The notes under the pieces were generated by a model. The model had not been told where the DNA came from. It worked only from the letters and a program-made list of their open reading frames with translations, and made no database searches. Shown piece after piece: positions 1,768 to 60,114 of a DNA stretch of 64,000 nt. Numbering within the stretch: the stretch's first letter is position 1; each line of letters starts with the position of its first letter. The translations under genes and the position numbers were made by a program. The DNA is taken from the NCBI RefSeq assembly GCF_947487515.1, contig NZ_CANKWO010000002.1:248001-312000 (forward strand), in the 5' to 3' direction. The stretch comes from an uncultured Litoreibacter sp. GTDB lineage: Bacteria; Pseudomonadota; Alphaproteobacteria; Rhodobacterales; Rhodobacteraceae.

Positions 1768-3033
1768 TTATAGCCACGTGGGGATGGTATCGCGATTTAT
1801 CATTTCGTCAAAGGTCGGACGTTCCCGAATGACGGCGAATTGATCCTCATGCACCAAAACCTCGGGGATTAGCGGTCTGGAGTTGTACTCAGACGCCATC
1901 ACAGCCCCATACGCCCCCGCAGAGCGGAAAGCGACAAGGTCGCCAGCCCCCACAGGTGGCATGATACGTTGCTTGGCAAAAGTATCACCGCTTTCACAAA
2001 TTGGCCCCACGATGTCGTATTTGACCTGATCTACGCCCGCCGTCGGCTCTACGACCGGAATAATATCGTGATGCGCGCCATACATCGCGGGGCGAATCAA
2101 GTCATTCATCGCGGCGTCGATAATCATAAAATTGCGGTCTTCACCTTCTTTGATGTAGATTACCTCAGACACCAAAAGACCTGCGTTGCCCGCAATTAAA
2201 CGACCTGGCTCAATTTCGATCTCGCACCCAAGGTGGCCGACTTTCTCTTGCACCAGCTGACCGAATTCTTGCGGCAATGGCGGCGCATCGTTGGACCGCT
2301 CATAGGGAATGCCCAGCCCGCCCCCAAGATCGAGGCGGCGGATGTTGTGGCCTTCAGCACGCAGCAAAGTGGTCAGTTCTGCGACTTTGTCAAAGGCCTG
2401 CCCGAACGGCTCTAGCTGCGTCAACTGACTACCGATGTGCACATCGATGCCCACCACGTCCAGCCCGGGAAGGGCCGCGGCCTGCGCATAGACGTCTTTG
2501 GCCCGCGAAATCGGGATGCCGAATTTGTTTTCCGACTTTCCGGTGGCGATTTTCTCATGAGTTTTGGCATCAACATCCGGATTCACACGAATGGTAACCG
2601 GAGCAATCGCGCCCATAGACGCCGCCACCTCAGAGAGCACCAACATCTCGGGCTCGCTTTCGATGTTGAACTGGCGAATCCCGCCTTCTAGCGCCAACCG
2701 CATCTCGGCACGGGTTTTGCCCACGCCAGAGAAAACGATCCGCTCGCCGGGGATGCCGGCCGCCTTGGCCCGCAGGTATTCCCCACCTGACACGACATCC
2801 ATGCCTGCGCCCAGATCACCCAGCAGCTTCAAAACTGCTTGGTTCGAATTGGCCTTCATGGCGTAGCACACAAGGTGCTCGGTCCAATCCAACGCGTCGT
2901 CGAACAAGCGAAAATGACGGCTGAGCGTCGCGGTTGAATACACATAGAACGGCGCGCCAACCTGTGCGGCGATATCGGCGATAGCTACGTTTTCGGCGTG
3001 CAGAATGCCGTCGCGGTAAAGAAAGTGATCCAT
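1768..3033 (-). CDS. lysA: Diaminopimelate decarboxylase
   Basis: This 421-residue protein performs the last step of lysine synthesis, the PLP-dependent decarboxylation of meso-diaminopimelate to L-lysine, in the cytosol. The PLP lysine sits in CYAMKAN. HIGSQ, EIEPGR and CESGD are the expected phosphate-binding, dimer-interface and active-site motifs of the alanine-racemase-fold decarboxylases. The ORF can be extended to 3081, but the internal ATG at 3033 is preferred: it is preceded by an AGAAGG-type site and gives the family N-terminus (MDHFLYRDG). DUF4175 follows on the same strand. The divergent neighbour is a PAP2 gene, whereas in many relatives argH lies upstream. Confidence 0.95.
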   Translation of the reverse strand: MDHFLYRDGILHAENVAIADIAAQVGAPFYVYSTATLSRHFRLFDDALDWTEHLVCYAMKANSNQAVLKLLGDLGAGMDVVSGGEYLRAKAAGIPGERIVFSGVGKTRAEMRLALEGGIRQFNIESEPEMLVLSEVAASMGAIAPVTIRVNPDVDAKTHEKIATGKSENKFGIPISRAKDVYAQAAALPGLDVVGIDVHIGSQLTQLEPFGQAFDKVAELTTLLRAEGHNIRRLDLGGGLGIPYERSNDAPPLPQEFGQLVQEKVGHLGCEIEIEPGRLIAGNAGLLVSEVIYIKEGEDRNFMIIDAAMNDLIRPAMYGAHHDIIPVVEPTAGVDQVKYDIVGPICESGDTFAKQRIMPPVGAGDLVAFRSAGAYGAVMASEYNSRPLIPEVLVHEDQFAVIRERPTFDEMINRDTIPTWL

Positions 3034-3268
3034 CAGTCGAGAGGCCTTCTGCGCAAGAATAAGTAAGGCGGCAAGCCGCATGAAACACCGATACAGAATG
3101 TGGCAGAGATCGCAACATGCGCCAGCCTTTCCTATATCGGTTAGGCCGCGATGTAGCCCATTCCCCTATCGCGTGAAAAGGCCGCAATCATACCGATACC
3201 CCGTATTTTCCTTATTTTTGCCCAGAAACTTCGGCAAATTCCACGCACGGGCTTAGGGGGCCGATCGA

Positions 3269-4237
3269 ATGATGAGATATTACTTCCTGTTTTCCTTGGC
3301 ATATCTGGCCTTTGCGGTCGGATTGATATTTGCCGTTCGCGAGCAGCCAGCCGCCCTGTTGATGGGGGCCGTTTTGACCTCTTTGTATTTGGCGAAGTCC
3401 TTTGCCGCTTGGGTCCCTGTCGTGGGGGTCGCTCTGGGCGCGTCTTTGTATCTGACACGCAAATACAGCGTCAAAGAGCGCATCATTCCAGCGATCTACG
3501 CAGTTATGGGCTGTTTGGTTTTCGCGACAGCTTTCTCCTTGGTGAAGACGTCTATCCCCTTCGTGCAACCCTTCTACGCTGACCCGTTTTTCGCCGATCT
3601 CGATGCGGCGTTGCACATGGGCGTGGACCCATGGGTGATCACCCATGCAATTTCGGCGTATATCCCCACCAGCTTGGTGGTGATTGTTTACTTTATGGTC
3701 TGGTCCTTTCCGGCCGTCTTCCTTCCCGTGTTTATCGCTTTGACAGATTCGGACACGGAACGTTCCAAGCGGTTTATTATCCTTCACGTCGCGGTGTGGA
3801 TTGGCTTGGGGAATATAATGGCGGCAATCGGCAGCTCGGTTGGGCCGGTTTATTATGACCGCCTTTTGGGGGGCTCCCGCTTTAGTGACCTTTCAAACGC
3901 CCTTGAAACAAGCGGTATTGCGGCCTCCCCGCTTGGTGGCGTGCAGGAAAACTTGTGGGTGCTTTATTCCGAATCCGGCCAAAGTCTTGGGTCAGGCATC
4001 TCGGCGTTTCCGTCGGTTCATGTCGGCATTGCAGCCGTCACATTCCTATACGTCTGGGAGCGGTCGCGAATCTTGGCCCCCCTTGGTGCGCTGTTTGCCG
4101 CGATGATCATGTTCTTCTCGGTCTATCACGGATGGCATTACGCAATAGACGGATATGTCTCGATTGTTGCAGTAACAGCCCTCTGGGCGGCACTTCGGCG
4201 ACGTAACGTTGCGATTGCCACTTACATTCCTGCTTGA
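3269..4237 (+). CDS. PAP2 superfamily membrane phosphatase/transferase (AUR1-like)
   Basis: The protein has 322 residues and is almost entirely hydrophobic, with about eight predicted membrane segments. The C-terminal half carries the PAP2 catalytic signature in the form found in AUR1/Ipt1-like proteins: GISAFPSVHVG at about residue 245, then YHGWHYAIDGY about 45 residues later, supplying the two histidines and the aspartate. Such enzymes move or remove phosphate groups on lipid head groups or inositol phosphates in the membrane; the substrate here cannot be told. The start is the first of two adjacent ATG codons, preceded by AGGGGG. It is divergent from lysA. Confidence 0.75.
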   Translation: MMRYYFLFSLAYLAFAVGLIFAVREQPAALLMGAVLTSLYLAKSFAAWVPVVGVALGASLYLTRKYSVKERIIPAIYAVMGCLVFATAFSLVKTSIPFVQPFYADPFFADLDAALHMGVDPWVITHAISAYIPTSLVVIVYFMVWSFPAVFLPVFIALTDSDTERSKRFIILHVAVWIGLGNIMAAIGSSVGPVYYDRLLGGSRFSDLSNALETSGIAASPLGGVQENLWVLYSESGQSLGSGISAFPSVHVGIAAVTFLYVWERSRILAPLGALFAAMIMFFSVYHGWHYAIDGYVSIVAVTALWAALRRRNVAIATYIPA

Positions 4238-4303
4238 TTGAAGGCTAAAAGCTAACAATGTTGCTGACCCACCCTTACAGGGTGATGCGAGAGGAAGTGA
4301 GAT

Positions 4304-5938
4304 ATGGCCGAGATTGAACGCGAAAGCATGGAATACGACGTAGTCATCGTAGGGGCAGGCCCAGCCGGCCTTAGCGCCGCTATTCGTCTGAAACAGCTGG
4401 ATGCAGACCTCAACGTTGTAGTGTTGGAAAAAGGCTCTGAAGTTGGAGCACATATTCTGTCAGGCGCGGTGCTTGATCCTTGTGGTCTTGATGCCCTGTT
4501 GCCGGACTGGCGCACTATGGGTGCCCCAATCAAAACCGAGGTCAAAACCGACAACTTTTACATGCTTGGGGAGGCCGGTCAGGTCCGCATACCGAATATG
4601 GTAATGCCCCCTTTGATGAACAACCACGGCAATTACATCGTCTCCATGGCCAATGTCTGCCGCTGGATGGCTGAGCAAGCCGAAGGCATGGGCGTCGAAA
4701 TCTTCCCCGGCATGGCATGCTCCGACATCGTTTATGGCGACAACGGCGAGGTCAAAGGTGTGATCGCAGGGGTATTCGGTCTGGAAGCAGACGGATCTTA
4801 CGGCGAAAACACAGAGCCAGGCATGGAGCTGCACGGCAAATACGTGTTCCTGTCTGAAGGCGTGCGCGGCTCCCTGTCCAAGCAAGTTATCGAAAAATTC
4901 GATCTGGCCAAAGACTCCAGCCCGCAAAAATACGGCCTTGGCATGAAAGAAATCTGGGAAATCGATCCAGCCAAGCACAAGGAAGGCACCGTGACCCACA
5001 CAATGGGTTGGCCTTTGGGCGGCAACGCGGGCGGCGGGTCGTTTATCTACCACCTTGAGAACAACCAAGTGTACGTAGGGTTTGTGGTTCACCTGAACTA
5101 CGAAAACCCGCATCTGTTCCCCTACATGGAATTCCAACGCTTCAAGCATCACCCCATGGTTGCCGACCTGTTGGAAGGCGGAAAACGCGTGGCCTACGGC
5201 GCACGTGCGATCACCGAAGGCGGCTGGCAGTCCTTGCCAAAAACCGCTTTCCCAGGGGGCGCATTGCTGGGCTGTTCCGCGGGTATGGTCAATGTGCCGC
5301 GCATCAAGGGCAACCACAACGCCATGCTGTCGGGCAAAGCCGCCGCAGAAGCCGCGTTCGAGGCCATTGGCGCGGGCCGCTCCGGTGACACATTGGACGG
5401 CTACGACACAGAAGTCCGCACAGGTGTCATCGCGAAAGACCTCAAGCGCGTGCGCAACGTTAAGCCTTTGTGGTCCAACTACGGCCTCACCGCATCCCTC
5501 GTCGTGGGCGGAGCCGACATGTGGTGTAACAACATCTTCGGCACGTCGCCGTTGAACCTCAAACACGGCAAATCTGATGCCGACGCCACAGGAAAGGCCG
5601 CGGACTTCAAGGTCATCGACTACCCCAAGCCAGACGGCAAGTTGTCTTTCGACCGGTTGACCAATGTGGCCTTCGCCGCCACCAACCACGAGGAAAGCCA
5701 ACCCTCGCATCTTCAACTGAAGGATGCGAGCATTCCGATGTCAGTGAACGTGCCCGAATACGCGGAGCCCGCGCAGCGCTACTGCCCTGCGGGGGTGTAC
5801 GAGGTGGTCGATGACGCCTTCGTGATAAACTTTCAAAACTGCGTACACTGCAAGACCTGCGACATCAAAGATCCGTCGCAAAACATTGTATGGACGACGC
5901 CTCAGGGCGGTGACGGGCCAAACTACCCAAACATGTAA
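4304..5938 (+). CDS. Electron transfer flavoprotein-ubiquinone oxidoreductase
   Basis: The 544-residue protein passes electrons from reduced ETF, fed by acyl-CoA and other dehydrogenases, to ubiquinone at the inner membrane. An N-terminal FAD dinucleotide-binding loop, VIVGAGPAGLSAAIRLK, begins near residue 14. The C-terminal 4Fe-4S domain is complete: CPAGVYE, then NCVHCKTCDIKDP. Length and ending (GGDGPNYPNM) match the family. The ATG at 4304 has a GAGAGGAAG site 8 to 9 bases upstream. The etfAB genes are not in this window. A strong hairpin with a pyrimidine tail follows the stop codon. Confidence 0.95.
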   Translation: MAEIERESMEYDVVIVGAGPAGLSAAIRLKQLDADLNVVVLEKGSEVGAHILSGAVLDPCGLDALLPDWRTMGAPIKTEVKTDNFYMLGEAGQVRIPNMVMPPLMNNHGNYIVSMANVCRWMAEQAEGMGVEIFPGMACSDIVYGDNGEVKGVIAGVFGLEADGSYGENTEPGMELHGKYVFLSEGVRGSLSKQVIEKFDLAKDSSPQKYGLGMKEIWEIDPAKHKEGTVTHTMGWPLGGNAGGGSFIYHLENNQVYVGFVVHLNYENPHLFPYMEFQRFKHHPMVADLLEGGKRVAYGARAITEGGWQSLPKTAFPGGALLGCSAGMVNVPRIKGNHNAMLSGKAAAEAAFEAIGAGRSGDTLDGYDTEVRTGVIAKDLKRVRNVKPLWSNYGLTASLVVGGADMWCNNIFGTSPLNLKHGKSDADATGKAADFKVIDYPKPDGKLSFDRLTNVAFAATNHEESQPSHLQLKDASIPMSVNVPEYAEPAQRYCPAGVYEVVDDAFVINFQNCVHCKTCDIKDPSQNIVWTTPQGGDGPNYPNM

Positions 5939-5947
5939 GTGTGAAAT

Positions 5948-5981
5948 GGCGCGGTGGGGAACATCCCATCGCGCCCTTCTT
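5948..5981 (+). terminator. Rho-independent terminator after ETF-QO
   Basis: GGCGCGGTGGG, a 6-base loop, then CCCATCGCGCC form an almost perfect 11-bp stem followed by CTTCTTCC. It begins ten bases after the ETF-QO stop. The tail is only partly T-rich. Confidence 0.65.
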
Positions 5982-6058
5982 CCAATCGGGTCATGGACAA
6001 CCTGTCAGCGCGCACCTACCTTCATTAGGGAACGCAAGATGAATTGGGCCGAACTGTA

Positions 6059-7768
6059 ATGATCAAGACTAAAATTCAACACCGCGTCGCATTGTTGATG
6101 TTGTCGCTCGCCACCAGTGCCGCACCGGTATTCGCCGCTGAGCAAGGGCTTGCAGGGCCATATCTTGCGGCACGGCAGGCCACGTTTTCGTCCGACTATA
6201 CAGAAGCTACCCACTACTACCGCAAGGCCATCGCCGCCGAGCCACAAAACCTTCTTCTTCAGGAGAACGCAATTATTGCGATGATCGGTCAGGGCGACAT
6301 TTTGGGCGCTGCCGAGATCGCCACTGAATATGAGGCCGCAGGCGGGCGCAACCAAATCGTTGATCTGGTACTCGACACCATCGCGGTGGCCAATGGCAGC
6401 TTTGATCGCACGGCCCTTGAAAGCCCGGAGAAGGACGGCCTTGCGCCGCTGTTGAACGGGCTAACCCGTGCATGGGCGTTGCTTGGCCAAGGTCAGATGT
6501 CCGATGCGACTGACGCCTTCGCATCCGTTGCAAAGATCGAAGACTTCGCCTCCTTTTCTCATTATCACAACGCTTTGGCCTTGGCCTCCGTTGGCGATTT
6601 CGAAGGGGCTGACGCGATCTTGAGCGGGGAACGATTTGGTCCCCTCGTGCTTAGCGTGCGCGGGATCGAAGCACATGCACAAGTTCTGGCCCAACTGGAC
6701 CGCAAAGAGGCCGCGCTAGAGCTTCTTGATGCCGCTCTCGTCAATGGGTTTAGCGCCGAGTTGGAAGACCTGAAGGCCCGTCTGAAGTCCGGAACGCCGT
6801 TGGAATACAATTTCGTCACCGACGCCCGTGCAGGTGTGGCGGAAGTCTACTTCAATCTGTCTGCGGTATTGAATGGCCGCGCCGCGCCAGAGCATGTTTT
6901 GCTCTATGTTCGCATGGCCCAACATATCCGACCGACCCATGCAGCTGCTGTTTTGATGACCGCCGAGATCCTTGAAGATATGCGCCAGTTTGATCTCGCG
7001 ACTGAGGCCTATGCGACGCTTCCCCCTGAAGACCCAGCCTATGTTCTGGCAGAAATTGGCCGCGCCAATGCATTGTATTCAGATGACCGCAAGGACGCAT
7101 CTGTTGAGGTGTTGACCGCGCTGTCAAAATCGCACGAGGCGGTGTCCATGGTCCATTCGACCTTGGGGGACATGCTAAGCCGCACTGATAAGAACGACCA
7201 AGCCATCGCCGCTTATACCCGCGCGTTGGAAATCAACGGCATCGGCAACAGAAACAACTGGCGAATTTACTATGCCCGCGGGATCGTAAAGGAACGTCAA
7301 GATGACTTGATCGGGATGGAGTTCGATTTCCGCAAGGCGCTAGAATTGTCTCCAAACCATCCTGATGTCCTGAACTACCTTGGCTATTCCTTGGTGGAGC
7401 AACGCATCAAACTGGATGAAGCCCTGGGCATGATTCAAACCGCTGTGAAGGAAAGCCCCGATAGCGGCTACATCACTGACAGCCTTGGCTGGATTTTTTA
7501 CCGCCTTGGCCGTTTTGAAGAGGCCGTCGCCCCAATGGAGCGCGCCGTGGAGCTGCTACCGGTTGATCCCATCGTGAACGACCATCTTGGCGATGTGTAT
7601 TGGAAAGTCGGACGCGAACGCGAGGCAGAATTCCAATGGAAACGCGCCCTGTCCTTTGAACCCGAAGAAGCAGATGCGGACCGTATTCGCAGCAAATTGG
7701 CGCGCGGGCTGACCGCAGTTTTGGAAGACGAGGCCAATGCAGGGGCCACGCAAACCGCCAACGACTGA
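6059..7768 (+). CDS. Secreted TPR-repeat protein
   Basis: This 569-residue protein starts with a typical Sec signal peptide (KIQHRVALLMLSLATSAAPVFA, cleavage likely after VFA) and is then made of helical repeats. Clear TPR units lie in the C-terminal half, for example the stretches around HPDVLNYLGYSLVEQ, SGYITDSLGWIFYRLGRFEEA and DPIVNDHLGDVYWKVGRE. It is therefore a periplasmic or lipid-side scaffold; no enzymatic motif is visible. The ORF track begins at a TTG (6044), but the ATG at 6059 gives the better signal peptide. That ATG overlaps the stop of a six-codon ORF (6039-6059). The 3' end overlaps the ispE start by one base, so the two are cotranscribed. Confidence 0.8.
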   Translation: MIKTKIQHRVALLMLSLATSAAPVFAAEQGLAGPYLAARQATFSSDYTEATHYYRKAIAAEPQNLLLQENAIIAMIGQGDILGAAEIATEYEAAGGRNQIVDLVLDTIAVANGSFDRTALESPEKDGLAPLLNGLTRAWALLGQGQMSDATDAFASVAKIEDFASFSHYHNALALASVGDFEGADAILSGERFGPLVLSVRGIEAHAQVLAQLDRKEAALELLDAALVNGFSAELEDLKARLKSGTPLEYNFVTDARAGVAEVYFNLSAVLNGRAAPEHVLLYVRMAQHIRPTHAAAVLMTAEILEDMRQFDLATEAYATLPPEDPAYVLAEIGRANALYSDDRKDASVEVLTALSKSHEAVSMVHSTLGDMLSRTDKNDQAIAAYTRALEINGIGNRNNWRIYYARGIVKERQDDLIGMEFDFRKALELSPNHPDVLNYLGYSLVEQRIKLDEALGMIQTAVKESPDSGYITDSLGWIFYRLGRFEEAVAPMERAVELLPVDPIVNDHLGDVYWKVGREREAEFQWKRALSFEPEEADADRIRSKLARGLTAVLEDEANAGATQTAND

Positions 7769-8622: not shown

Positions 8623-9620
8623 TTCAGCCGCGACACCACATAGTCAGCCAAGTCGCTCAGCATATCCGTTAATGCCCCCTGAGGCACCGCATCCAGCGCC
8701 TTTTTAGCTGTCTCGGACCACGCCAAAGCGTCTTGGCGCGATTGCTCCAAGGCCTCGTGTTTCGCCAGTAACTGAAGCGCGTGATCCAGATCGCCGTCCT
8801 CCTGCTTACCCTTCTCAATGGTCCGCACCCAGAAGTCGCGATCGGCATCGCCTCCGGCGGCAATCGCTTTGATCAATGGCAAAGTCAGTTTGCGTTCGCG
8901 AAAGTCGTCGCCTACGTTTTTGCCCGTCTTGGCAGTGTCGCCCGCAAAATCAAGGATATCATCCGCGATCTGGAAACTGACGCCCAAGGCATCCCCATAG
9001 CTGTAGAAGGCCTGAACGACTGCATCAGGCGCATCGGCGATCATCCCGCCCACTTGCGTCGCGGCAGAAAACAATGCGGCCGTTTTTCCGCGTACAACTT
9101 GCAAATAAATGTCTTCAGATGTTGTCAGGTCTTGCGCGGCAGTCAGTTGCAGAACTTCGCCTTCCGCAATCACCGCAGATGCGTTCGAGAGCACCTTCAA
9201 CACATCCAAACGCCCCGCGTCCGTCATCAACTGGAAAGATCGCGCAAACAGATAATCCCCGACCAAGACCGAAGATTTATTGTCCCAAAGAAGGTTGGCC
9301 GCTGGTCGCCCTCGGCGTTGCGCACTCTCGTCAACCACATCGTCATGCAACAATGTCGCTGTGTGAATGAATTCTACCGTTGCGGCCAAATGCACATGAT
9401 ATGGGCCCTCATAGCCGCAAATCCGCGCGGCCGCCAAGGTCAACATCGGGCGGACCCGTTTGCCGCCAGCTTCGACAAGATGCGCCGTGACCTCTGGGAT
9501 GCGCGGGGCATGCTCCGACGCCATGCGTTCACGGATAAGCGCCCCCACAGAGGCAAGATCATCAGACAATGCTGTTTGAAGTCGTTCGTGTGGTTTCACA
9601 GGTTGGGTATCCAAACTCAT
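8619..9620 (-). CDS. ispB: All-trans polyprenyl (octa/decaprenyl) diphosphate synthase
   Basis: The 333-residue protein belongs to the trans-prenyltransferase family that makes the side chain of ubiquinone. The first Asp-rich motif is LLHDDVVDESAQRRGRPA at about residue 92 and the second is QIADDILDFAGD at about residue 217. GGKRVRPML near the N-terminus binds the allylic diphosphate. Chain length (C40 or C50) cannot be read safely; Rhodobacterales usually make ubiquinone-10. Convergent with ispE. A DUF2007 gene is divergent 57 bases away. Confidence 0.92.
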   Translation of the reverse strand: MSLDTQPVKPHERLQTALSDDLASVGALIRERMASEHAPRIPEVTAHLVEAGGKRVRPMLTLAAARICGYEGPYHVHLAATVEFIHTATLLHDDVVDESAQRRGRPAANLLWDNKSSVLVGDYLFARSFQLMTDAGRLDVLKVLSNASAVIAEGEVLQLTAAQDLTTSEDIYLQVVRGKTAALFSAATQVGGMIADAPDAVVQAFYSYGDALGVSFQIADDILDFAGDTAKTGKNVGDDFRERKLTLPLIKAIAAGGDADRDFWVRTIEKGKQEDGDLDHALQLLAKHEALEQSRQDALAWSETAKKALDAVPQGALTDMLSDLADYVVSRLN

Positions 9621-9677
9621 CTTTATGCGCCGCCTCGTGTCTCGACAATCCCGTCAAACTGACGTTAACTCAATCAC

Positions 9678-9899: not shown

Positions 9900-10649
9900 A
9901 TGAGTTTCGATGCCGAGCAACTTACCCATGACGCATTTCTTGGCGGTAAGCTGCATCTTTGGCAACCTCAAGACGGCTATCGCGCGGCGACCGATCCCGT
10001 TCTCTTGGCTGCCGCCTGCCCCGCGACCTCTGGTCAATCTGTTCTGGAGTTGGGCTGCGGTGTCGGCACGGCGTCCCTGTGCCTGCGCACACGGGTTGAT
10101 GTTGATCTCAACGGCGTCGAGCTGCAGCCCGCTTATGCCAGTCTGGCCCGCCGAAACGCGGCTGATGCGGGGTACAAAATGGACGTGGTGGACGCCGATC
10201 TGTCCGACCTGCCGATGACCGTTCGCGCCCGCAGCTTTGACCATGTCATATTCAACCCGCCTTACTACGGGCCAGGAACCTCGTCGCCAAACAAAGGTCG
10301 TGACAAGGCCTTGCGCGAACAAACCTCGCTGGCCATTTGGGTGGATACGGCCCTGCGTCGCGCCGGACCCAAGGGCATCGTGACAGTCATCCATTTGGCA
10401 GAAAGAGTCGGGGATCTTATCGAATTGCTTAATCCACGGGCGGGATTGATCGAAATTAAGCCGATTTCCGCCAGAGCAGGAAAAACTGCAGGGCGTGTTT
10501 TGCTGCGCGCGCATAAGGGACGAGCTTCCCGCAGCATATTGCATAACCCGTTGGTCCTGCACGATGGACCGAGACACTTGCGCGACGGGGATGACTTCAC
10601 GCAGGCAGCGACAGACATCCTGAGGCATGGAAATCCGGTAGATTTTTAA
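9900..10649 (+). CDS. TrmN6/YfiC-like tRNA1(Val) adenine-N6 methyltransferase
   Basis: The 249-residue class I SAM-dependent methyltransferase has the SAM-binding loop VLELGCGVGTASLCL near residue 47 and the N6-adenine catalytic motif FNPPYYGPG at about residue 117. The early GGKLHLWQPQDGYRAATDPVLLAAA is typical of the YfiC family, which methylates A37 of tRNA1(Val). The NPPY motif shows that the target is an exocyclic amine; assignment to this tRNA rather than another nucleic acid rests on family resemblance only. It lies seven bases downstream of the DUF2007 gene. Confidence 0.8.
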   Translation: MSFDAEQLTHDAFLGGKLHLWQPQDGYRAATDPVLLAAACPATSGQSVLELGCGVGTASLCLRTRVDVDLNGVELQPAYASLARRNAADAGYKMDVVDADLSDLPMTVRARSFDHVIFNPPYYGPGTSSPNKGRDKALREQTSLAIWVDTALRRAGPKGIVTVIHLAERVGDLIELLNPRAGLIEIKPISARAGKTAGRVLLRAHKGRASRSILHNPLVLHDGPRHLRDGDDFTQAATDILRHGNPVDF

Positions 10650-55103: not shown

Positions 55104-56393
55104 TTATTGTGTTAATGAACACGACCACCACACCTGATGCAATGAAGGATTGTAATATCCTTCAAGTGATCCGCATTTTATGAACCCTTGCGCTTCTAGT
55201 GCCACGGCGTTTTCTTCAGAGATGTCGCTCGGGATGGCCAACACAACCATCCGAGCGGATTTTTTCGCTGCTTTCTCCAAGGCGTAATCCAATCCCGCCA
55301 TGCCGACGGGCCGCTCTTCCCACACCAGTCCCATGACGTTCTTGGTCTCGGGTTCAGGAGCGACGTCATTGATGGCCAACCCTGTGTTCGTCGAAACGGG
55401 TTCTTCACCTTCTGGTTCATACTCTGGGTTATTAAGCCCATACACGATCTTTGCCTCGGAAGGGTTATGGTAGTCTGGGACTTTCAGCTCCACGACGGCA
55501 CCGAAGTCCTCATACATCTTATGCGCACCTGCATAAATATCGCGCCCGAAGTCGCGGTAGTCGCTGGTGGCGATGAATATTTTGCGTATGCCGAAATCCT
55601 TCAGCTTCCCTAGTAAGTCGTTGAGCATTTGACTGCCCAGCCCAGTTCCAAGGTGGTCTTGATCCAGATAGGTCCACGACAGCCATGCAATGTCATGCAC
55701 TTGTTCATCCAGACTATAGCCGGTCACGCCAATGACCTCGCCCTTTTGCATCAGGACAAACATCTGCTCCAAGCCGCCGTCAAAGAATTCGTCTTCGGCT
55801 TCCTTTGCATCATCACTATCGGTCTGATCGATGATCGAAACCACCTTCGCAATATGGACGTGCTGCATAGGTTTCAGCGTCGGGGATTTACTGCCGAAAA
55901 GTTTTTCAAACATAACAAAGGATCCTCCAATTAGGGCTCCGGAAATATGGACATATACGGCGAAAGTTTGGGAAAGATAAAGCCACTCCGACACCAGCAA
56001 AACAAAAAGACATGCGCTGAACACGAAGAAAGACCCTCTGGTGCGATCCGCCAAAACTCCGTAACTCAAAAGCCCGTATGAAATCCCAGATGCCCCGACA
56101 AATTTCGGCCCAGAGATATAGAATTGCGCAATCGTTCCAAGCAGAACACAGGCCAGTATCAAGACAAGGGTGCGCCTTCGGCCCAAGCGCGGCTCGGCGA
56201 ACAGCCCGCCGAAAAAGATGACCAAAATGTTGCCGCCCAGATGTGACAGATCCCCATGCCGCAGAACTCCTGCGAAGGCATCCCCTAGCCCATCTTGATA
56301 CCGCAAAGAATGCGTGGCCCCCGTCATGGCATAGGCCCCAAGCAGCAGCACAATCACGCCGGTGGTTACGACAAAGTCGCGCAGCTCACTCAC
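55104..56393 (-). CDS. Rhomboid protease fused to GNAT acetyltransferase domain
   Basis: The 429-residue protein begins with six membrane segments that form a rhomboid: HLGGN, the catalytic serine in GASGISYGLL and the catalytic histidine in VHISGALIGGSF are all present. Residues 200-315 are a GNAT domain (KGEVIGVTGYSLDEQVHDIAWLSWTYLDQDHLGTGLGSQML, the acetyl-CoA loop). The last 90 residues look like a second GNAT C-terminal half (ALEAQGFIKCGSLEGYYNPSLHQVWW). The start is GTG at 56393 with GAGG at good spacing. It lies between speD and a membrane protein; acetylation of a polyamine is a reasonable guess. Confidence 0.85.
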   Translation of the reverse strand: MSELRDFVVTTGVIVLLLGAYAMTGATHSLRYQDGLGDAFAGVLRHGDLSHLGGNILVIFFGGLFAEPRLGRRRTLVLILACVLLGTIAQFYISGPKFVGASGISYGLLSYGVLADRTRGSFFVFSACLFVLLVSEWLYLSQTFAVYVHISGALIGGSFVMFEKLFGSKSPTLKPMQHVHIAKVVSIIDQTDSDDAKEAEDEFFDGGLEQMFVLMQKGEVIGVTGYSLDEQVHDIAWLSWTYLDQDHLGTGLGSQMLNDLLGKLKDFGIRKIFIATSDYRDFGRDIYAGAHKMYEDFGAVVELKVPDYHNPSEAKIVYGLNNPEYEPEGEEPVSTNTGLAINDVAPEPETKNVMGLVWEERPVGMAGLDYALEKAAKKSARMVVLAIPSDISEENAVALEAQGFIKCGSLEGYYNPSLHQVWWSCSLTQ

Positions 56394-56801: not shown

Positions 56802-56964
56802 CGTAAATTTCTTCCCTCGTAATGCTCTAGACCTGACGTGCCAACCGCCGTCTGTCAATTCCTTAACAAGCGATGCGGATGACCACAGCTTTAGATCTAC
56901 TCCACATACTGGTGCATAAGGAGCAAACTGATAACATTCAGAATTCACGAAGAGAGAAGGTTAC

Positions 56965-56990
56965 CTAGCATTGGCGTGGCTTCTAATTTG
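56965..56990. repeat. 26-bp direct repeat, copy 1
   Basis: CTAGCATTGGCGTGGCTTCTAATTTG covers the stop codon and 3' flank of the unknown 286-residue gene. An identical copy lies 872 bases away around that gene's start codon. Confidence 0.95.
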
Positions 56991-57843
56991 CGCCCAAGAC
57001 AGGCACATCGTCCATCGTGCATTTCTCAAAGACATATTCGTCAATCAAGGGCCGCAGAACCTCGTCGCTTATGTCCTCGCGGGACCAGTCTTTGAGATGT
57101 TCCAGCAAAACGGGGTCGTCAGAGATACCACGACGACCAGGGCCAAAGTGGAAGTGATAATCAAGGTTCCTCAAGCACCTGTTCGAACCAGCCATCGTCC
57201 CCACGTGAAACCCAAATCCATAGGGCGTCTTCGGTCGGCGTTCGTCATATGTCATGTTGAGACTAAGACTATGAGCAAAGGCTTTGCCATTTTTCACGAA
57301 CACGACTTCGCTGCTCAAGAGGGTTAACTTACGCGATCCGTAGATGCCTTTGGGATGAAATCGACCCAGAGACACCATCATGCTGTCGTAGAGTTCTTCG
57401 TCGGTTCGGTCACCCAATCCACCGCTAACTTCTTCTACCACAGGCATCGCTTCGACCATTCTGGCGTATTCAATGTATTTGCGCGCCGCTTCTTCGCGCG
57501 TGTAACGTCCGCGGCGTTCTAAAGCGTTGATACTTTCAACATAGCCTTGGCTGGACCAATAACTGACACGCGCGTTCGGGAACTCGAGCACGTTATCCCC
57601 CAGCAACAGCGTCGCGCGGCCATTGAATGAAGGGGCATGACGCGTCCACATTGTTCCGTCGTCGTCAACCTTGTAAACAACAGGAGGGAATTCATAATTC
57701 TCGCTACGCGCTTCTAACTCTTGCGCGCTATGCATAACGCCCAAGGTAATGGCTTGATCCAGTCCGCCGAAAAGCAAATACGCAAAGATGCTAACGAAAA
57801 CCGCCGCGGTGGACGTCATGATGATGAAGTCTTTATCTAGCAT
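56983..57843 (-). CDS. Unknown membrane-anchored protein upstream of speD
   Basis: A 286-residue protein I do not recognise. One membrane segment near the N-terminus (IIMTSTAAVFVSIFAYLLF) is followed by a soluble domain with VVYKVDDDGTMWTRHAPSFNGRATLLLG, a helical RRGRYTREEAARKYIEYARMV and HFHFGPGRRGISDDPVLLEHLKDW. The ATG at 57843 is preferred to the track start at 57927. The start and the stop both lie inside copies of the same 26-bp repeat. It is 182 bases upstream of speD and same-strand, so a link to the polyamine cluster is possible but not shown. Confidence 0.65.
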   Translation of the reverse strand: MLDKDFIIMTSTAAVFVSIFAYLLFGGLDQAITLGVMHSAQELEARSENYEFPPVVYKVDDDGTMWTRHAPSFNGRATLLLGDNVLEFPNARVSYWSSQGYVESINALERRGRYTREEAARKYIEYARMVEAMPVVEEVSGGLGDRTDEELYDSMMVSLGRFHPKGIYGSRKLTLLSSEVVFVKNGKAFAHSLSLNMTYDERRPKTPYGFGFHVGTMAGSNRCLRNLDYHFHFGPGRRGISDDPVLLEHLKDWSREDISDEVLRPLIDEYVFEKCTMDDVPVLGAN

Positions 57844-58087
57844 TGGCGTGGCTTCTAATTTGTGCGTGTTCAGAATTAATATAGGCACTATCTTCTGCAT
57901 TAGCATAAAGGGTGTCGAAGGCTGCAATTACGCTCTCCGTGTACTTCATACGATCACTCTTTTCGGTGACATTGCCGGTGTTGAAGGGGAAGAGGTACTT
58001 ATTGTAAGGCGTTTCAGTAATCCGCAACCAACTATACAAAACCGCGCAATCGACGCACCACGCACCATACAGAGGCGAGAAATACAT
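57833..58087 (-). CDS. Possible small protein overlapping the unknown gene's start
   Basis: An 84-residue frame (MYFSPLYGAWCVDCAVLYSW, then MKYTESVIAAFDTLYANAEDSAYINSEHAQ) whose stop overlaps the start of the 286-residue gene by 11 bases. It has no clear ribosome site and no known family. Its C-terminal QIRSHANAR is encoded by the 26-bp repeat, and the second repeat copy would encode the same peptide in the matching frame. This may be the tail of a decayed gene. Confidence 0.3.
   Translation of the reverse strand: MYFSPLYGAWCVDCAVLYSWLRITETPYNKYLFPFNTGNVTEKSDRMKYTESVIAAFDTLYANAEDSAYINSEHAQIRSHANAR
57837..57862. repeat. 26-bp direct repeat, copy 2
   Basis: Identical to copy 1 (CTAGCATTGGCGTGGCTTCTAATTTG). 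It spans the start codon and leader of the 286-residue gene and the last codons of the small ORF upstream of it. Confidence 0.95.
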
Positions 58088-58200
58088 CGTTTTTTCAAGA
58101 AAATTCAGTGTTCTTGTAACGGGAGCGGTTTACTCAGTCGCTTAATTAGTAGCCTTTGCAAAAAATGCCCTTTGATGGGGCTAAAAACTAGGTCAACCAA

Positions 58201-58362
58201 TTGGATGAGAATTTTGAGGAAGTCCTAGGGGCCATCGCTGATGCCGAATGGGCCCGGTCACTCAGCCGCTGGAATAAACTTGGCCCCGACTTGTTGCTTC
58301 CAAACCAAGAAGAGAGGGATGAAATTGTTGTGGCCATTCGACGGCTGCTCAAATCAACATGA
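58201..58362 (+). pseudogene. Possible gene fragment (acidic helical peptide)
   Basis: A 53-codon open frame from a TTG: LDENFEEVLGAIADAEWARS, then LLLPNQEERDEIVVAIRRLL. The composition looks protein-like (amphipathic helices), but there is no ATG and a stop lies just upstream, so it is best read as a fragment of an unknown gene. Confidence 0.3.
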
Positions 58363-58688
58363 TCTTGGGTTATGGCGGAGTTGCATGATGATCAGAGGCA
58401 GAAACAGATCGCTAAGGAAGCTGTCAGCATAGATCCGACTTCTCGATCTTGACCAGACTATGTGATGAAAAGAGCATCAAGATGAGTGTCGTCGTTGCGG
58501 CACTTGAGGTGGAGGTCAAGTAGTCTTCAGGACGATCCTGCCCCGGGTATTTTCAAAACGAGCTAAGAATTTCAACTCGCAACCCGGTTTGGGCTGGTCC
58601 ATATGTTCGAATGAACCCGTAGGTTACCAATAGTAGTGACGCGGCTTACGGCTGGTTGACTATGTGAGGTTGCCAGGATCGCCGCCTT

Positions 58689-58898
58689 TCAGCAGTTCCA
58701 GCTCACGCTTCCGCTCTGTGCGCCGCGAAGGGCGCGTATGAAGAAGTTTGTCGAGCCAACGCGGCCAGTTTGGAGCCAGCGTACATCTTCAGCCGCAAGC
58801 TTGAGACGGCGCTCAAGTCCTTTGGTTGAATAGCCTTTGTTCCGGTCAGAAATGCGCGACCGTTTTCGTTTGTATTGGGCCATGTCGAGGCCTTTCAT
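58689..58898 (-). pseudogene. Possible frameshifted small basic protein
   Basis: The frame begins MAQYKRKRSRISDRNKGYSTKGLERRLKLAAEDV and then loses protein-like character. A different frame over the same bases reads APNWPRWLDKLLHTRPSRRT, then ELELLKGGDPGNLT before a stop, which looks like its continuation. I infer one frameshift. The family is unknown. Confidence 0.3.
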
Positions 58899-59202
58899 GC
58901 AGTTTCGTTACTACATGGCGTTCTCCAATTCTGTGGTTTTCGGGCTCACCGCTGGCCGTGCATCCGCCAGCCGCACTAAATATGGCTTGGTAAAAGTTCG
59001 CGCAAAAGAAATCTCGCAGCTGCAGGACTCTTCAGTTGTTCTTTGCACATTCCCGTGACGGATCCGCACTTCTTCATAACATCAGATGAAGGGAAACAGG
59101 TCGCATAAAACGGGCAATATGTTTCCGCCATGGCGTGATCCAAAAATGTCGTTCACGTCCTCCTTGCTGTCTATCGGGTTGGCAGCCTAGACCTTTCCAG
59201 TC

Positions 59203-60114
59203 ATGTTCCAAATTATGGCATTTGGCGTATTCATCCATCGTACAGACTCAATCTACGACGACGTACCGTCGGAGCGATATCAGTTCCCAAAGCAGTACCT
59301 GACGCGTGTTCAACGGTGTAAGGGTGATTGGATTGTCTATCTCGAACCCAGCAAGGTTAAGAACACCAAGGGCTACTTTGCGGTCGCCAAAGTTCAGGAC
59401 GCAATCCCCGACCTAAGGAATGCGGGCATGCACCTGGCTGTGATCGAACCGGGGACATATCTCGACTTCGGCGATCCTGTACCCTTTCGTGATGCAGATG
59501 ATGTTGTCGAGCAAGGCCTTCTCAATGACCTTGGTAAGATTTCAGGGCGTGCCCAGGCGGCTGTACGACCACTTTCATCAACAGACTTTGCCCGGATTGT
59601 TGAGCGTGGCCTTGGAACCGGCGACGACATTCTCCCTCGGATCGGTCAAGCTGGTGCAGAGGTTGGTTTCAAAGAGGATCAGACACCTTTTCAATTGCCG
59701 TCTGCACGGGAGCGCGTCAATCAATTGACGAGCAGAACTGTTCGCGACCGGAATTTTCGAAAGAACGTTCTCCGCGCATACGGCGAACGATGCGCTATCA
59801 CTGGATTGCGGCTGATCAACGGTGGTGGCCGTGCAGAGGTCGAAGCGGCGCACATTAGGCCAGTCGAACATGATGGCCCCGACATCGTTAGTAACGGAAT
59901 GGCACTATCTGGTACAGCACACTGGATGTTCGATAGGGGGCTGGTAGGGTTATCAGATGAATTAGAGATCCTGGTCTCAAGGCAAGCTAACGACCCTGAT
60001 GCTGTGAAATCCATGCTCAACAGTTCAGGCCACCTTTTGGTACCTGGACGGCCAGCGGAACGACCACGTGCAGAATTTGTGGCTTGGCATCGAGAACACT
60101 GTTTCAAACATTGA
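59203..60114 (+). CDS. HNH endonuclease with N-terminal reader-like domain
   Basis: The 303-residue protein has a C-terminal HNH_2-type nuclease fold: RNFRKNVLRAYGERCAITGL, VEAAHIRPVEHDGPDIVSNGMALSGTAHWMFDRGLVGL. The first 110 residues (FGVFIHRTDSIYDDVPSERYQFPKQYLTRV, WIVYLEPSKVKNTKGYFAVAKV) are an all-beta region resembling EVE/PUA-like domains that recognise modified bases; this is a resemblance only. Such a build would suit a modification-dependent restriction enzyme. No methyltransferase is adjacent. An alternative ATG is at 59215. Confidence 0.75.
   Translation: MFQIMAFGVFIHRTDSIYDDVPSERYQFPKQYLTRVQRCKGDWIVYLEPSKVKNTKGYFAVAKVQDAIPDLRNAGMHLAVIEPGTYLDFGDPVPFRDADDVVEQGLLNDLGKISGRAQAAVRPLSSTDFARIVERGLGTGDDILPRIGQAGAEVGFKEDQTPFQLPSARERVNQLTSRTVRDRNFRKNVLRAYGERCAITGLRLINGGGRAEVEAAHIRPVEHDGPDIVSNGMALSGTAHWMFDRGLVGLSDELEILVSRQANDPDAVKSMLNSSGHLLVPGRPAERPRAEFVAWHREHCFKH

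Follow-up and report, generated by a model that had tools for sequence, protein, structure and literature searches.

A 26-bp direct repeat in an uncultured Litoreibacter sp. as the likely relic of a collapsed T6SS-type immunity array

How does a perfect 26-bp direct repeat come to cover both the start and the stop codon of a single gene? This arrangement was found in the window, the whole 64,000-nucleotide stretch of an uncultured Litoreibacter sp. genome analyzed here. The repeat, CTAGCATTGGCGTGGCTTCTAATTTG on the + strand, is present in two copies that start 872 bp apart (Table 1). A minus-strand gene of 286 residues has its ATG (57843-57841) in one copy and its stop codon, TAG (56985-56983), in the other. 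When extended without gaps, the repeat reached 33 nt with 2 mismatches (31/33; 56961-56993 and 57833-57865), and past this core the flanks of the two copies shared no similarity on either side. An exact repeat of at least 26 bp is expected by chance about 4e-7 times in 64 kb. No other direct repeat of comparable quality was found within the 64-kb window, and a scan of the 3.34-Mb genome with up to 3 mismatches allowed returned the two known copies only. A sequence-only reading of this DNA had described the repeat correctly. It had also noted, again correctly, that the C-terminus of a small minus-strand ORF (57833-58087; ...QIRSHANAR*) lies inside the upstream copy and that the downstream copy would encode the identical peptide. 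It had left both ORFs as unknowns and had proposed either tandem duplication and deletion or a cassette that could loop out. We consider it likely that the locus is the relic of a T6SS-type effector-immunity module, a collapsed immunity array.

Table 1. Features of the repeat locus, in window coordinates
Feature	Coordinates	Strand	Content or basis
286-aa immunity-like gene	56983..57843	-	ORF; full-length homologue in G308
Repeat copy 1	57837..57862	-	Last part of the putative effector tail, AGAAG as a weak Shine-Dalgarno-like motif, immunity-like gene start codon
Repeat copy 2	56965..56990	-	Second copy of the junction, where the immunity-like gene ends
Putative effector gene remnant	57833..58003	-	Last about 56 codons (NKYLFPF...IRSHANAR*)
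Degraded intergenic stretch	58004..59202		Where the rest of the effector gene and the DUF4123 adaptor gene would be expected

The two ORFs treated as unknowns match consecutive genes of one operon, and the sequence-only reading had missed a truncated putative effector and its candidate immunity partner. The operon was found in an uncultured Rhodobacteraceae bacterium of another genus of the same family (G308; L042, L062). There it is intact, with a DUF4123 adaptor (E 9e-23) followed by a 379-aa putative effector and, directly downstream, a homologue of the 286-aa gene. Within the 84-aa small ORF, the first 28 codons had no detected homology, and the remainder was 50% identical to residues 324-379 of the 379-aa protein (E 8e-15). 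In two genomes of the same genus, 365-aa proteins have C-termini that match this remnant weakly (33-34% identity). A reverse search with one of these 365-aa relatives recovered the remnant and also turned up further relatives in the family.

The G308 homologue of the 286-aa gene, 35% identical over its full length (E 2e-49), was reached solely via the small ORF. A single-sequence search with the 286-aa gene yielded no relatives in 100 related genomes, genome contigs, viral contigs, phages, or plasmids, and no sequence match in Pfam, NCBIfam, PHROG, or PDB. A profile run against 397 genomes of the family added one further relative only, an apparently truncated gene in G102 that adjoins insertion-sequence-like genes. 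The gene that had been called unknown does have a full-length relative, in third place of an intact DUF4123 operon. It represents a new immunity-like protein family, of which very few members are known.

In G308, the immunity-like gene begins before the effector gene ends, and AGGAG stands ahead of its ATG. By this comparison, the repeat in the window is the junction between an effector C-terminus and the translation start of an immunity-like gene, and it probably carries the translation start of that gene. The junction of the window reads AAATTAGAAGCCACGCCAATGCTAG, with an AGAAG that is weaker than the AGGAG of G308. Copy 2 supplies the last two residues and the stop codon of the immunity-like gene, in a frame that differs from the reading frame of the effector tail. 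Its own ATG opens an ORF of merely 8 codons (56971-56945). Scans for promoters and terminators gave numbers at chance level. Could both copies be kept as a conserved regulatory repeat, acting near the gene in translation coupling or in RNA processing? The overlap of copy 1 with the start codon and the Shine-Dalgarno-like motif would fit, as would the partial conservation of the junction in G308. However, the 8-codon ORF of copy 2 and the decay of the distal junction copy in G308 (see below) make this explanation very improbable.

The genes expected upstream of the effector tail appear to be gone from the window. A tblastn search of the window with the 365-aa relatives detected no effector homology in the degraded intergenic stretch. 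A truncated ORF in that stretch resembles an ORF of G004, and 385 bp (58625-59009) match G004. No DUF4123 adaptor was found beside the 286-aa gene. When the entire genome was searched with a 365-aa relative, the C-terminal remnant was the only hit and no intact homologous effector was found. With an intact cognate effector absent from locus and genome, the 286-aa gene would count as an orphan immunity gene.

DUF4123 proteins serve T6SS effectors as adaptors. The window genome encodes T6SS machinery (TssA, TssB, TssC, TssF, Hcp, FHA, and VgrG, with the TssC match on contig C5) and has 12 DUF4123 domain matches. No T6SS genes were found adjoining the 286-aa gene, and the link of the window locus to DUF4123 and T6SS rests on gene order in relatives. 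The gene downstream of the effector in G016 had no detectable relation to the 286-aa gene, though the effectors are related.

The putative effectors resemble DUF2515 (PF10720) weakly. At a cut-off of 24.3 bits, the window remnant (14.8 bits) and the G308 effector (17.4 bits) both fall below, while a DUF4123-linked protein of G447 passes with 40.2 bits. Judged by domain matches and gene order, a tie between weakly DUF2515-like proteins and DUF4123 adaptors in this bacterial family is new here. It makes these proteins candidate T6SS effectors, and DUF2515-like proteins may form an unrecognised T6SS effector family. In a separate locus (L044:3120-4475), a DUF2515 protein above the cut-off is encoded directly downstream of a DUF4123 adaptor, with a similar neighbour in G372 (L084).

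The 286-aa protein has an N-terminal hydrophobic segment (about residues 9-28), and its G308 homologue begins with a basic N-terminus followed by a hydrophobic stretch. According to the positive-inside rule, a basic N-terminus before a hydrophobic stretch places the remainder of a protein in the periplasm. On this basis, the 286-aa protein is probably membrane anchored with a periplasmic domain. An AlphaFold2 model built from two sequences reached a pLDDT of 42.6, too poor for use. The protein would most likely serve to shield the cell against an effector resembling the one in G308. The intact frame of the gene suggests selection until recently.

How could a junction of this kind come to stand both before and after one immunity-like gene? 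It would do so if at least two junction-immunity units had once stood in a row at the locus. With the adaptor gene and most of the effector gene lost, ~56 codons of effector tail would have stayed behind next to an intact, orphan immunity-like gene. The distal immunity gene would have been deleted just past its start codon. The second junction would then have remained, and the present gene would borrow its stop codon from it. Since merely 26-33 bp of the second unit are left, we infer its former immunity gene as well as the order of these events. At least two tandem immunity genes define an immunity array or polyimmunity locus, and the window now holds one gene and a bare second junction. No close strain with a fuller array or an empty site was found in the databases, and no genome of the same genus shares the 56.85-58.6 kb stretch.

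Duplicated junctions were also found elsewhere. In G308, the homologue is immediately followed by the same junction in decayed form and by the opening ~20 codons of a further immunity-like gene (103 bp, 73% identity, E 2e-13; alignment score 66, where 1000 shuffles reached no more than 36). The window's own genome has an intact DUF4123 module (L068; G000:C2:416000-430000, 2892-7426) that contains an effector-like gene bearing a HELGH motif. The genes are arranged in the order DUF4123, effector-like gene, imm1, effector tail, imm2, and a third tail fragment. The tail repeat between imm1 and imm2 spans 44 bp (84%), and imm1 and imm2, two immunity genes in tandem, are 32% identical (E 3e-39). In a second G308 module (L074), effector sequence occurs again after the downstream gene (84 bp, 92%). 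G003 carries an orphan unit of tail plus downstream gene that is 85% identical to an intact module in G010, and the similarity stops exactly at the stop of the downstream gene. This gene is frameshifted and belongs to a family other than that of the 286-aa gene. A 10-bp match between the tail and the gene end in G003 was judged possibly due to chance. Most other adaptor loci of the window's own genome had no such effector-tail repeat. Effector-tail and immunity units, whether duplicated or isolated, thus form a recurring pattern in these genomes, as seen in G308 (with L074), L068, and G003. The repeated occurrence of effector sequence beside immunity genes is new here.

Around further DUF4123 modules of the window's own genome lie direct repeats of 92 bp (96%; L067:6546-6637 and 10134-10225) and 131 bp (93%; L064:3199-3329 and 9535-9665). 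These repeats look intergenic and could play a part when whole modules are gained or lost. They do not lie at an effector-tail junction and were set aside as junction examples.

The loop-out cassette proposed by the sequence-only reading would have the 872-bp unit insert and excise at the 26-bp site. The sharp boundaries of the repeat agree with such a unit, as does the absence of the 286-aa gene from 20 of 20 same-genus relatives examined. An integrating or excisable cassette calls for a recombinase and a repeatedly used site. No recombinase was seen among the neighbouring genes examined, and the genome has no further copies of the site. Moreover, the position of the repeat is explained by its coding and translation-start content, with an effector C-terminus and an immunity start as its counterpart in G308, where a duplicated junction and a second immunity gene fragment occur rather than an empty site. 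We therefore hold a cassette to be extremely improbable. Homology-dependent loss between the two repeat copies is physically possible.

If the locus is a collapsed array, its second unit could have arisen by local tandem duplication or by displacement, in which an arriving effector-immunity pair took the place of an older effector whose tail stayed behind. Under the first route, illegitimate recombination would have copied the 872-bp unit of tail end and immunity gene on the spot, with later deletion of the second copy of the immunity gene. The 26 bp are identical, as in a recent duplicate, and the stop codon of the immunity gene was made by the joint. However, the tails in L068 are 84% alike while the immunity proteins are 32% identical, showing that similar tails do not require a recent duplication. 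For the arrays of Vibrio cholerae, duplication was rejected on phylogeny, and it was proposed that one effector-immunity pair had been displaced by another, with remnants of the old pair left in place (PMC5361080). Applied to the window, this second route would have an incoming pair displace the older effector, the older tail and immunity gene erode, and the newer effector be lost as well. Besides the published model, effector remnants downstream of immunity-like genes in L068 and in L074 of G308 favor displacement, and the alike tails and unlike immunity proteins of L068 show that it can leave similar tails. Against it, displacement needs two tails identical over 26 bp of DNA, whereas elsewhere the tails differ by 8-27%. 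Each route is credible while falling somewhat short of probable, and we rated the two about equal. The earlier proposal of tandem duplication and deletion comes close and is partly supported by the recurrence of duplicated junctions in G308 and in the window's own genome, but displacement as proposed for Vibrio would serve equally well.

More broadly, the window, G308, L068, and G003 raise the idea that the junction is a recurrent recombination handle through which tail-plus-immunity units are gained, lost, and relocated as self-contained modules. Such units would be translatable because the junction carries the ribosome-binding site and the start codon of the immunity gene. We regard this generalization as rather unlikely.

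The locus shares several traits with the T6SS arrays and orphan immunity genes of V. cholerae (PMC5361080, PMC8189183), in which immunity genes are kept after effector loss, truncated effectors are reported beside immunity genes, and units are repeated in a row. Orphan immunity genes give V. cholerae an advantage in pairwise competition (PMC8189183). Unlike those arrays, the window locus belongs to another bacterial family and encodes unrelated proteins; in addition, it has two copies of the junction itself and a single remaining immunity gene, and no T6SS genes were found adjoining. Homogeneous polyimmunity loci (PMC3482391) contain tandem paralogous immunity genes, as does L068, whereas the window locus would have collapsed to a single gene of a family not among the Pfam models. 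DUF4123-effector-immunity T6SS modules have the gene order seen in G308, from which the window differs in having neither the adaptor nor most of the weakly DUF2515-like effector. The repeat is thus real and unusual looking, yet it can be explained within a known phenomenon, as an uncommon relic rather than a mobile cassette. On this reading, a repeat that had lacked an explanation and two ORFs of unknown nature would turn into a legible fossil of bacterial warfare. With several independent cases of effector sequence repeated beside immunity genes, it becomes possible to test how orphan immunity genes build up.

Other genes of the window were of note in their own right. An HNH endonuclease gene (59203-60114) has a second copy, 71% identical, at G000:C2:810541. 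A single ORF at 60732-62795 matches both Pfam KptA/Tpt1 (RNA 2'-phosphotransferase) and RtcB (RNA ligase), an RNA-repair fusion. At 55104-56393, a rhomboid domain is fused to a GNAT acetyltransferase and adjoins an S-adenosylmethionine decarboxylase, a pairing retained in G008 (L011) and G003 (L012).
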